A stretch of DNA of 33,955 bases, from positions 1 to 33,955 of the forward strand of contig JAIMAE010000017.1 in the NCBI GenBank assembly GCA_023512105.1, in the 5' to 3' direction. Shown here piece after piece: positions 7,611 to 17,763 of the stretch; within the stretch, counting starts at the first letter, position 1, and each line of letters begins with the position of its first letter. Source of the DNA: Bacillota bacterium (GTDB taxonomy: Bacteria > Bacillota > Sulfobacillia > Sulfobacillales > Sulfobacillaceae). Position numbers and translations under genes: made by a program. The notes under the pieces were generated by a model, which was given only the letters and a program-made list of their open reading frames with translations, searched no databases and was not told where the DNA came from.

Positions 7611-7645
7611 AAAAACAAAAAGCCCTCCGTCCTCGGGACGGAAGG
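7611..7645 (-). terminator. Intrinsic terminator of the trp T-box leader
   Basis: TCCGTCC and GGACGGA pair perfectly around a 3-base loop, extended by three pairs at the base, and are followed by CTTTTTGTTTTT. It lies directly after the T-box sequence and before trpE, so it is the regulated terminator that forms when tRNA-Trp is charged. Confidence 0.9.
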
Positions 7646-7889
7646 AGACTTCCGTGGTGCCACCCCAATTAGGTCGAAACTCGACCTCACTCCTCGCCGG
7701 TACAGGAACCTAGGTCCGATACCGCCTCCTTGGATAACGGGAGAGGACCCCGTCCGAGCCTACTGGACGAACCGTCGTTGGGTCGGAAGCTCCCAGGCCC
7801 ATTCCCATCGGATCCTGCTGCCGGCCTCTCACCTGCCGCCGACTCTCTGTAAGCCTTCCCCGACGGTACTCTTCCTGTTCTTCGCCGTC
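7611..7889 (-). promoter_or_regulatory. T-box leader responding to tRNA-Trp
   Basis: The minus strand carries the T-box sequence AATTGGGGTGGCACCACGG at 7670-7652, overlapping the 5' side of a terminator. Upstream, stem I shows AGGAAGAGTACCGTC, an ACAGAGAGTCGGCGGC / GGTGAGAGGCCGGC pair of the type forming the k-turn region, and GGGAATGGGCCTGGGAG at the 3' specifier side. The codon UGG at 7801-7799 sits where specifier codons lie, giving tryptophan specificity that agrees with the downstream trp genes. Uncharged tRNA-Trp would stabilise the antiterminator and allow trpE transcription. Confidence 0.93.
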
Positions 7890-7895
7890 TCTTTC

Positions 7896-8105: not shown

Positions 8106-8134
8106 CTGACAGCTCGCCGATGATGGCTTACACT
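8106..8134 (+). promoter_or_regulatory. Promoter for the riboswitch-controlled wall hydrolase
   Basis: CTGACA (8106-8111), 17 bases, TACACT (8129-8134). Transcription would start near 8140, right at the riboswitch 5' end, leaving almost no extra leader. A GATAAT at 8092-8097 is an alternative -10 but lacks a matching -35. Confidence 0.55.
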
Positions 8135-8137
8135 CGA

Positions 8138-8243
8138 CCTGCCGAATCGTGACAAGGTCACGACCGGGGGAACCAATCTTGGGGTGAATTCGCTAGCCGA
8201 TAGGGCTGCCTCGCGGCCCGAACCCGTCAGCTAACTCCGGAGG
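8138..8243 (+). promoter_or_regulatory. ydaO-yuaA (c-di-AMP) riboswitch
   Basis: The sequence holds the conserved blocks of the ydaO class: GACCGGGGGAACCA, TTGGGGTGAATTC, GATAGGGCTGCC and CCCGAACCCGTCAGCTAAC. A P1 stem can form between CCTgCCG at 8138-8144 and CGGAGG at 8238-8243. That 3' strand contains the GGAGG Shine-Dalgarno sequence of the next gene. The family binds cyclic di-AMP and commonly controls wall hydrolases and potassium transport, which fits the downstream 3D/NlpC-P60 gene. No terminator lies between aptamer and ATG, so control is probably at translation. Confidence 0.93.
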
Positions 8244-8248
8244 CAACC

Positions 8249-9247
8249 ATGCGAGGTGGAGAATCTATGAGACCCCTGTATCGGTGGGCCCCAGTGGCCA
8301 CCGGTGTCCTCTTGGGCGCCGGGCTGTCCCTGTCCGGCCCGGCCTTCGCGGCCCCCATCGCCGGGCAGACGTTGACCGTGAAAGCCACGGCCTACGGGCC
8401 CACCCTGCGCGAAAACTTCCCCTATGGGCCGGTGGACCGGTACGGACGACCCCTAACGGCAGGGGACGTGGCCGTAGACCCCCGGGTGGTCCCTCTGAAG
8501 TCCTGCCTGTACATCACCGGCTACCACACGCCGTATCTGCCTGCAGGCGGGTACATCGGCGAGGCTGACGACCAAGGAGGAGCCATCAAGGGAAGGCACG
8601 TAGACCTCTATATCCCGGGCACCCAATCCCAAATCAACCGTTTTGGGATTCAAAAGGTCCAGGTGACGGTGCTCGGACCGGCCACCAACCCTTCCGCCGC
8701 CGGGACCGCGGCCTGCGCGGGCTACCAGGTCAGCCAAGCGGGAGGCATTCCCGCCTTGATGGGCCACACCGCTGCGCTGGCGGCCAAGAGCCTCTCTCCG
8801 TCGCTTCCCGTCACCGGCGCGGCCAGCAACCGCACCTCGCCAACATTCTTGGCGTCCAACGGGTTTGGCGCCTCCGTGGTGGCCGTGGCCAAGACCCAAC
8901 TGGGAGACCCCTATGTCTGGGGAGGCACCACACCGGCGGGTTTCGACTGCTCAGGGTTGGCCCAGTGGGTGTTCGCTCAGCTGGGGGTGAAACTCCCGCG
9001 ACTGTCTGGGCAGCAGTTTCGCGTCGGCACGCCGGTCAGTCGAAGCAATTTGCAGCCGGGTGACCTGGTTTTCTTCACTACCTACAAACCGGGCCCTTCC
9101 CATGTGGGGATCTACATCGGTTCCACCCCTACCATTGCCCACGCCTTCATCGCCGCCGATAACCCGACGGTGGGAGTGAGAATCGACAACTTGGATGCCC
9201 CTCGCTGGAGTCAGCGCTTTGTCGGCGCAAGGCGCATCTCCCCCTGA
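8249..9247 (+). CDS. Secreted 3D-domain + NlpC/P60 cell-wall hydrolase
   Basis: A 332-residue exported protein. A signal peptide (basic start, hydrophobic core about 15-30, cleavage near AFA-AP at 33-36) is followed by a 3D domain (about 42-145) with DPRVVPL, GEADDQGG and HVDLY supplying the conserved aspartates. A low-complexity linker leads to an NlpC/P60 peptidase (about 207-332) with C234 in GFDCSGL, H285 in SHVGIYIG and H298. It probably cuts peptide stems in peptidoglycan outside the membrane. The ATG at 8249 is 5 bases after the GGAGG in the riboswitch P1 stem; a second in-frame ATG at 8267 with GGTGGAG ahead gives a more standard signal peptide start. Expression is likely set by c-di-AMP. 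It is transcribed divergently from trp. Confidence 0.92.
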   Translation: MRGGESMRPLYRWAPVATGVLLGAGLSLSGPAFAAPIAGQTLTVKATAYGPTLRENFPYGPVDRYGRPLTAGDVAVDPRVVPLKSCLYITGYHTPYLPAGGYIGEADDQGGAIKGRHVDLYIPGTQSQINRFGIQKVQVTVLGPATNPSAAGTAACAGYQVSQAGGIPALMGHTAALAAKSLSPSLPVTGAASNRTSPTFLASNGFGASVVAVAKTQLGDPYVWGGTTPAGFDCSGLAQWVFAQLGVKLPRLSGQQFRVGTPVSRSNLQPGDLVFFTTYKPGPSHVGIYIGSTPTIAHAFIAADNPTVGVRIDNLDAPRWSQRFVGARRISP

Positions 9248-15778: not shown

Positions 15779-16612
15779 CTAGCCGGATTGCAGTTGCCTA
15801 AGCTCGGCTTCGGTGAACCGGTAACGCCGCCGGCAGTAGTGGCAGACCACTTCAGCGCCGTGTTGCTCCTCGATCAAGGCGGTAAGCTCCTCCGGCGGCA
15901 GCCCTTTTAGCAGCGAGAGGCTACGGCGGCGGCTGCATTGGCAGCGAAACCGCAACGGCTCGCGCGGGGACCACGCGATCGGCTCCGGCAACACCGAGCG
16001 AATCAAATCCTCGGGGCTCTCTCCGTCGTTCAGGCGCTGGCTGAGCGCGGCCAGGCGGGCAAACCGCGCGCTCACCGCCTCCACCTCGCCCTCGCTGCCC
16101 GGCAGGGCTTGCACCACCACGCCTCCGCTCGCCGCCACTAAGCCGGATGGGCCCACCAGGACCCCGAGGGCGACCGCGCTGGGCACCTGGACCGACTGCC
16201 AGTAGTAGTGGGCCAAGTCCTCGCCGATTTCCCCGGAGACCAGCGGTACCTGGCTCTGATAGCGGACCCCTCCTGCGTCCTCGTACCAGACCACCAATTC
16301 CCCGTTCCGGCCAATGGCTTGTCCCACCGCCAATTTGCCGTCGGGCCGCAACGGCAAATCCACCTCGGGGTGGTCGACCCGCACCCGCAACCACTGTTCT
16401 CCCTCGGCTTGGCGAATCTCTGCCGCCACCAAACCCAACGGTCCACCGCCCTGCAGGCGCACCTCGAGGCGAAACGCCTCTTTGACGTCGGCCGCCAACA
16501 AGGCGGCAGCCGCCAGCGCCCGCCCCATCGCGGCGGCGGCCAGCGGGCCGGCGCGGTGCACACGTTGGGCGGCCCGAGCAGACTCGGTGGTGACCACCGC
16601 GACGGCGCGCAA
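15779..16612 (-). CDS. hslO: Hsp33 redox-regulated chaperonin
   Basis: A holdase chaperone activated when its zinc cysteines oxidise. All four are present: C224/C226 (RCQC) and C257/C260 (CHYC). The boundaries given use the first canonical start, TTG at 16612 (277 residues), but this is too short: the 14 codons upstream, in the same frame and without a stop, encode TDYRIRATWAEGA, which matches the conserved Hsp33 N-terminal strand (compare DYLVRA...G in the family). The codon where a start is expected is GTT at 16654-16652, 6 bases after GGGAGG. Translation may begin at a non-standard codon there, or the base could be a sequencing error for GTG. The full protein would be about 291 residues, the normal length. 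It lies 28 bases downstream of the spoVM-like gene. Confidence 0.9.
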   Translation of the reverse strand: MRAVAVVTTESARAAQRVHRAGPLAAAAMGRALAAAALLAADVKEAFRLEVRLQGGGPLGLVAAEIRQAEGEQWLRVRVDHPEVDLPLRPDGKLAVGQAIGRNGELVVWYEDAGGVRYQSQVPLVSGEIGEDLAHYYWQSVQVPSAVALGVLVGPSGLVAASGGVVVQALPGSEGEVEAVSARFARLAALSQRLNDGESPEDLIRSVLPEPIAWSPREPLRFRCQCSRRRSLSLLKGLPPEELTALIEEQHGAEVVCHYCRRRYRFTEAELRQLQSG

Positions 16613-16681
16613 GGCGCCTTCAGCCCAGGTCGCCCGAATCCGATAATCCGTAACCCTCCACCTCCCGGGTTCAAGGCCTGG

Positions 16682-16768
16682 TCACTTTTTCCCCTTGGCC
16701 CAAAACCCTACCACAAATTGCAAAACCTTGCCCACCAATCGCGGCACCCGCACTACCGTGATTCGCAA
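16682..16768 (-). CDS. spoVM: Probable stage V sporulation protein M (28 residues)
   Basis: A tiny gene, TTG at 16768 to TGA at 16682. AAAGGAGG lies 10 bases upstream. The protein is an amphipathic cationic helix: MRITVVRVPRLVGKV, then LQFVVGFWAKGKK. Without gaps it aligns with the 26-residue SpoVM of Bacillus subtilis: M1, P9, G13, G21 and K25 are identical, and most other positions are conservative (K/R at 2, 7 and 10; aliphatics at 6, 8, 11, 12, 15, 16 and 20). P9 is the residue known to matter for recognising membrane curvature of the forespore. The location is also right: in Bacillus spoVM lies between rpe/thiN and rpmB. SpoVM anchors the SpoIVA ATPase of the spore coat basement layer. 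Identification rests on alignment by eye plus synteny. Confidence 0.8.
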   Translation of the reverse strand: MRITVVRVPRLVGKVLQFVVGFWAKGKK

Positions 16769-16787
16769 TGTCCCCGCGCCTCCTTTG

Positions 16788-17006
16788 TCAGACCGCAATC
16801 AGGCGCCACCCCAGCCAGATCAGCGCCCCTGCCGCCAAAAGGGGACCTAAACCGGCCCATACCAACCACAACCCAATGCCTACCGGCCACAAGCCCAAGG
16901 GTACGATCTTGATCAGCACGATGGCGCCGGCCACAATCAACGCCACTCCCACCAACCGGACCCGGCCCCGCCCATGCCGGTGCCACCGGTATCGGATGGT
17001 CCGCAT
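16788..17006 (-). CDS. Small membrane protein, 72 residues
   Basis: ATG at 17006 is 7 bases after GGAGG, supporting expression. A basic N-terminus (MRTIRYRWHRHGRGRVR) is followed by hydrophobic segments at about 18-35, 39-56 and 57-70, so two or three membrane spans. The repeated pattern of Leu/Gly/Trp with LWPVGIGLWLVWAG resembles the LiaI/LiaF-type transmembrane domain, but the match is loose. It occupies the place where thiN lies in Bacillus (between rpe and spoVM) and is 19 bases upstream of the spoVM-like gene, so a sporulation or envelope role is possible but unproven. Confidence 0.75.
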   Translation of the reverse strand: MRTIRYRWHRHGRGRVRLVGVALIVAGAIVLIKIVPLGLWPVGIGLWLVWAGLGPLLAAGALIWLGWRLIAV

Positions 17007-17118
17007 GCTACTCCCTCCGCTTTCTCACCTGTCGCCAATCACCTTGGCGGTCCGCCAGCCGAGCGGCCGCGGGTGACCGTGTAGCGACATACTACGGAGG
17101 TCGCGGGTCCGATGACAC

Positions 17119-17763
17119 TCATCCGGTGCGAATGGCCTCGATGGCCGCCACCGGGTCGGGAGCTCCAAACACGGCCGAGCCGGCCACCAGGATGTCGGCC
17201 CCGGCCGCCTTGACCAGGCGCGCCGTCTCGCTGTTGATCCCGCCGTCGACTTCGATCAGCGGACGGTCTCGCCCGCCGCGCAGGGTGGCCAAGCGTTCAA
17301 TCTTATCCACCGCCCGCGGCCAAAAGGCCTGCCCGGCAAAACCCGGGTTGACACTCATCACCAGGATCAAATCGACTTCGGGCAAGATGTCGGTCAAGAG
17401 TTCGACTGGAGTCGCCGGATTGACGGCCACCCCGGCCAGCGCCCCCATCTCGCGAATGGTGCTGACCACGCGCTCGAGGTGGGTACAAGCCTCCCAATGG
17501 ACGGTGATCAAGTCGGCTCCGGCCCGCCGAAAATCGGCGAGATAACGTTCCGGTTCCGCCACCATCATATGCACGTCGAGGGGAAGTTCAGTCGTTCCTC
17601 GCAACGCCTCTACCACCATCGGGCCTACGGTAATGTTTGGCACAAATCGCCCGTCCATCACGTCGACGTGCAACAGGTCCGCCGCATCCGCCACGCGCCG
17701 GACCGAGTCGGCCAACCGGGCAAAGTCGGCGGATAAGATGCTGGGCGCCACTTGAACCGTCAT
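17119..17763 (-). CDS. rpe: Ribulose-phosphate 3-epimerase
   Basis: A 214-residue TIM barrel interconverting ribulose 5-phosphate and xylulose 5-phosphate. Signatures: VAPSILSADFARL, LLHVDVMDGRFVPNITVGP, DVHMMVAEPERY, VNPGFAGQ and EVDGGIN supply the metal-binding His/Asp residues and phosphate loop. The usual GFGGQ loop reads GFAGQ, a mild change. ATG at 17763 follows GAGGGGG by 5 bases. It lies 69 bases after rsgA in the same direction, the normal Bacillota order. Confidence 0.96.
   Translation of the reverse strand: MTVQVAPSILSADFARLADSVRRVADAADLLHVDVMDGRFVPNITVGPMVVEALRGTTELPLDVHMMVAEPERYLADFRRAGADLITVHWEACTHLERVVSTIREMGALAGVAVNPATPVELLTDILPEVDLILVMSVNPGFAGQAFWPRAVDKIERLATLRGGRDRPLIEVDGGINSETARLVKAAGADILVAGSAVFGAPDPVAAIEAIRTG

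Follow-up and report, generated by a model that had tools for sequence, protein, structure and literature searches.

A highly diverged spoVM orthologue in a Sulfobacillaceae bacterium and its probable partner gene for a small membrane protein

In Bacillus subtilis, SpoVM binds the convex outer forespore membrane through a helix kinked at Pro9 and tethers SpoIVA, and Gly486 of SpoIVA is tied genetically, by suppression, to Ile6 of SpoVM (PMC5607322). Pro9 is the sole residue that is invariant in the published SpoVM alignments (PMC5607322). In Clostridioides difficile, spoVM is co-transcribed with CD25622, a gene of about 50 aa that was reported to be unique to the Peptostreptococcaceae, and a CD25622 insertion mutant, polar on spoVM, has the same phenotype as a spoVM mutant (PMC5607322). 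It is already known that SpoVM is small and often omitted from annotation; a 2012 survey did not find spoVM in several clostridial genomes, and distant versions were suspected, their existence being left open (PMC3533761). Our literature search for SpoVM together with Sulfobacillus found no report within the limited collection that was searched.

The window analyzed here, a stretch of 33,955 nucleotides, is one contig of the 3.48-Mb genome (97% complete) of a Sulfobacillaceae species. This family takes in Sulfobacillus thermotolerans Kr1, S. benefaciens and S. harzensis. The G+C content near the locus is 66%. The features are shown in Table 1, together with two regulatory RNA elements located elsewhere in the window.

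Table 1. Features of the spoVM locus and two RNA elements in the window
Feature	Coordinates	Strand	Remarks
rpmB, ribosomal protein L28	15563..15745	+	convergent; syntenic marker; found by tblastn with an L28 probe, 46% identity
hslO (Hsp33)	15779..16651	-	inserted between spoVM and rpmB in this lineage
spoVM, amphipathic peptide	16682..16768	-	28 codons; TTG start at 16768, stop TGA at 16684-16682; assigned by conservation, profile comparison and synteny
Ribosome-binding site of spoVM, AAAGGAGG	16779..16786	-	10 nt 5' of the TTG
ORF72, small membrane protein, 72 aa	16788..17006	-	conserved partner gene upstream of spoVM; ends 19 nt before the spoVM start codon
Promoter-like motif CATC-N14-CGTAGTAT	17089..17114	-	ahead of ORF72 and spoVM
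rpe, ribulose-phosphate 3-epimerase	17119..17763	-	syntenic marker
T-box leader	7631-7891	-	above the Rfam gathering score
c-di-AMP (ydaO/yuaA) riboswitch	8130-8260	+	above the Rfam gathering score

The preliminary description of this DNA had presented the 28-codon TTG-start frame, with its upstream ribosome-binding site, as an unusually small spoVM-like gene. The frame, the product of which is MRITVVRVPRLVGKVLQFVVGFWAKGKK, is real, but its size is not unusual, since SpoVM normally has 26-28 residues. In a genome of the same genus an ATG stands at the same codon in place of the TTG, which indicates that the start is correctly placed, and GTG or TTG starts were met again in other spoVM genes. 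An in-frame TTG farther upstream, at 16798, would give a peptide of 38 aa, but we did not adopt it, as relatives begin at 16768.

The gene order in the window, rpe-ORF72-spoVM-(hslO)-><-rpmB, corresponds to the canonical order rpe-spoVM-><-rpmB with hslO inserted. That is, the gene lies beside rpe and rpmB as in B. subtilis and as had been claimed, although hslO separates it from rpmB. The TTG start, the position of hslO before rpmB and the membrane-protein gene upstream distinguish this locus from that of B. subtilis. The hslO gene of the window has no in-frame ATG, GTG or TTG ahead of its conserved N-terminus DYRIRATWAEGA, and its start is likely the ACG at 16651. A standard start is likewise missing from hslO at L013 and L014 (ATT or ACG) and L021 (CTG).

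We then compared the peptide with B. subtilis SpoVM (26 aa; PDB 2MVH; NCBIfam model NF033436), the reference sequence of which was checked against the PDB 2MVH entry. The ungapped alignment that had been proposed was recovered with a score of 33; 5 of the 26 positions are identical and 17 are positives. The length, the residues P9, G13 and G21 and the alternation of basic and aliphatic residues are common to both peptides. In 300,000 composition shuffles, a score this high came up 11 times, and among the 3,221 frames of the window that start with ATG, GTG, TTG or CTG, the next-best scored 7. The helical hydrophobic moments are similar (0.54 in the window peptide, 0.59 in B. subtilis); for residues 10-25, the observed value is reached by 2% of the shuffles of the window peptide and by 2.9% of those of B. 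subtilis SpoVM. In contrast, Phe3, Tyr4 and Arg17 of B. subtilis SpoVM are replaced in the window peptide, Val8 takes the place of Leu8, and Gln17 and Trp23 are invariant in the Sulfobacillaceae.

The low identity is reflected in the searches with existing models. Profile searching for SpoVM, which had been suggested as a check, was successful only in part: NF033436 (SpoVM_broad) matched nothing in the genome of the window with the E-value limit relaxed to 10, but it weakly matched 14 of 24 family members (best E 0.0014). A second SpoVM model, PRK14741, matched 2 of the 24, and no non-SpoVM model matched any of them. An hmmscan of the 28-aa peptide alone against Pfam and NCBIfam gave no match. 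The curated NF033436 cut-off of 31 bits, below which the window peptide falls, says something about the model and not about the biology, and many syntenic SpoVMs in other Bacillota likewise score below it; therefore, we do not regard the cut-off as decisive.

A comparison of profiles gave a clearer result. When the family alignment (A1) was compared by hhalign with an alignment of canonical SpoVMs sampled across the phylum without Sulfobacillia (A2), the two matched over all 28 columns without gaps, with a probability of 96.7% and an E-value of 3.7e-10, which is a rough value, as are all E-values from 28 columns. When 17 relatives were searched genome-wide with A2, the best match fell on the syntenic locus in 12 of them; A2 gave no match in the window's own genome. 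A profile search of the PDB sequences did not reach 2MVH, and the link was thus made through the profile-profile comparison and synteny. There are also intermediates that bridge to canonical SpoVM, such as MRFYTVRVPKVIGKILKGFFGIWQK, and further members from the class, such as MKVQVIRLPKVVGRVLLAVVGVLARRPS. At the syntenic place, class genomes without a profile match possess an ORF that resembles spoVM and has a ribosome-binding site, for example MRVVVWKPPGLVRALLRGLMGLARLFRRRETAA in G042 and MAVRVIVVRLPGFLGRIFRRGRRGNA in G068. No second, better SpoVM was found elsewhere in these genomes with NF033436 or A2. The SpoVM-like peptides of L131 and L132 (MKIYAVKLHPILSAIV...) carry His9 and Pro10, and are an exception to the invariance of Pro9.

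The frame was found in 32 of the 34 genomes of the family, and the two that lack it are only 63% and 61% complete; the absence of conservation in close relatives, which had been named as grounds for refutation, was thus not observed. Mean entropy at codon positions 1, 2 and 3 over 30 loci of relatives was 0.63, 0.23 and 1.46 bits, respectively, and 15 of the 18 spoVM codons that differ between the window and another member of the genus are changed synonymously. Among 24 distinct family sequences, M1, V5, V8, P9, G13, L16, Q17 and W23 are invariant.

The genome was also searched for spoIVA and other spore genes, and spoIVA (E 1.5e-111), sigE (411.7 bits; cut-off 348.6) and spo0A (379.5 bits; cut-off 200) were all found over their curated cut-offs; the absence of spoIVA and all other sporulation genes, the other ground for refutation that had been named, was thus not observed either. 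From these genes we infer that the organism sporulates. Its SpoIVA, as in B. subtilis encoded in the same genome as spoVM, has 492 aa, and its C-terminal RIINEGSGGLICI keeps Gly486; the position of Ile6 in B. subtilis SpoVM is occupied by Val6 in the window peptide.

SpoIVA was found in 57 of 61 relatives. In G036, which has no spoIVA, both spoVM and ORF72 are missing between rpe and hslO while the site is otherwise intact; in its congener G037, all three genes are present. In G047, also without spoIVA, rpe directly faces rpmB, and spoVM and ORF72 are missing. The same direct arrangement of rpe and rpmB was seen in G334 of the same genus, where spoIVA status was not searched. G058 (85% complete) possesses spoVM and ORF72 without a detected spoIVA, which is probably due to the incompleteness of the genome.

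These observations bear on two other explanations of the frame. According to one, translation of the downstream hslO is governed by the frame, which would be a leader peptide or a spurious ORF; this might be suspected because hslO comes next on that strand and has no standard start codon in the window. However, the same kind of peptide occurs in distant genomes without an adjoining hslO (L048-L077), what is conserved is the amino-acid sequence and not mere translation, and G036 keeps hslO, yet has lost the peptide where spoIVA is gone. We consider this explanation very improbable. The other is that an unrelated cationic amphipathic peptide, antimicrobial or toxin-like, has converged on the SpoVM pattern. 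Such a case would account for the small number of residues shared with B. subtilis SpoVM and for the lack of a curated-model match in this genome, but the occupation of the same syntenic slot, the graded intermediates, the same upstream partner gene, the exclusive matching of SpoVM models and the co-absence with spoIVA all speak against convergence, which we regard as hardly credible. Taken together, the results strongly suggest, with a probability that we put at about 0.96, that the frame of this Sulfobacillaceae bacterium is a genuine spoVM orthologue, although a highly diverged one.

The preliminary description did not mention the conserved ORF72 upstream of spoVM. ORF72 has a basic N-terminus followed by the pattern GxxLxxxGx7LPxWxW...GxxLIWxGWxL; in the alignment of its family (A3), this corresponds to a hydrophobic helix 1 with GxxLxxxG, a turn with LPxWxW and a helix 2 with GxxLIWxGWxL. 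The members from Sulfobacillales have approximately 14 additional hydrophobic residues. When 25 partner sequences were searched against NCBIfam and Pfam, only isolated matches to unrelated membrane families and no model describing the family were obtained. The AlphaFold prediction of ORF72, one long helix with a pTM of 0.32, was uninformative.

Genes related to ORF72 immediately precede spoVM not only in the Sulfobacillaceae but also in many distant Bacillota. A3 matched 77 of 299 genomes (E up to 0.01). We examined 44 other SpoVM loci, which were matches in the phylum sample with E up to about 0.001, and 30 of them have a family member 14-80 nt upstream of spoVM; the loci without a family member include those of Bacillus type. 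Conversely, 32 of the 40 A3 matches outside the seed adjoin a SpoVM-like ORF, defined as 18-36 codons with a K/RxP pattern and a ribosome-binding site, compared to 2 on the opposite strand and 0.6 in shuffles; seeds and matches partly share genera, so that the counts are not all independent. In three more matches (L127, L131 and L132) the neighboring SpoVM was judged by eye, and the matches at L152, L157, L158 and L160 do not adjoin spoVM. The partner gene was the only route to the SpoVM-like peptides at L149, L151 and L155, which are extended at the N-terminus (MSKKKEPKIYYIRIPDFIKKFLSS...).

The CD25622-spoVM pair of C. difficile resembles this arrangement in its layout, with a gene of about 50 codons directly upstream of spoVM, near rpmB and under sigma-E control (PMC5607322).

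A promoter-like motif precedes ORF72 (Table 1). In the family its form is CACC-N15/16-CGTA(C/G)NAT, about 70-90 nt before ORF72 in most loci, and a loose form was present in 23 of 30 loci, compared to 0.08 in shuffles. A wider form, CAYY-N14-17-CRTA, was present in 28 of 30 spoVM operons, in 10 of 15 spoIVA regions and in 3 of 716 control tiles. The occurrence of the motif at both the spoVM operon and spoIVA hints that the two share a sigma factor of the mother cell; it is not proof, because the pattern was written after viewing the sequences on which it was counted and the genomes are related. Between the motif and the ribosome-binding site of spoIVA there is a strongly conserved leader, GGGTGATCCCGGGACAGGCGAGGACCGGCGCCAACCC, in Sulfobacillaceae and relatives (L110-L120, L122). 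This leader had no match in Rfam and could be a structured leader RNA.

ORF72 might instead be a gene of some other function and a mere neighbor of spoVM. The C. difficile mutant described above would fit this explanation, since the CD25622 insertion is polar on spoVM and phenocopies the spoVM mutant (PMC5607322), and so would G289 (L146), which keeps an ORF72-type gene beside a convergent rpmB-like end with no recognizable spoVM. Against it stand the placement of the gene 14-80 nt upstream of spoVM in so many loci, its loss along with spoVM and spoIVA in G036 and G047, and its position behind the shared promoter motif. We therefore think that a mere neighbor is rather unlikely. It seems fairly probable to us that spoVM, except in the Bacilli, commonly stands second in an old sporulation unit of two genes. 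The first gene, formerly thought to be confined to a single family, would encode a membrane hairpin of 50-75 aa that works with SpoVM and SpoIVA on the outer forespore membrane, and it would lead to SpoVMs missed by standard searches.

We propose that the unit functions as follows. By analogy with SpoVM biology (PMC5607322), the mother cell would make the peptide during sporulation, and its amphipathic helix, kinked at Pro9 and with polar positions 14, 17, 21 and 25, would bind the positively curved outer forespore membrane and tether the SpoIVA ATPase, the polymer of which would form the base of the coat. The spoVM gene is probably co-transcribed with the upstream gene for the hairpin-type membrane protein from one promoter, which resembles that of spoIVA and most likely depends on sigma-E. 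As a working guess, the partner may sit in the outer forespore membrane and aid SpoVM or SpoIVA in settling or acting there.

The novelty of these findings lies in their extent: a gene for a small membrane protein, widely conserved, is paired with spoVM, and there are SpoVMs that fall under the curated model. Distant SpoVMs occur at the same site in the Sulfobacillus class and in other Bacillota even where that model fails, and SpoVM thus appears to have been retained by more spore-formers than one would gather from annotation. The ORF72 family offers a concrete candidate for a component of the spore-coat base outside Bacillus.
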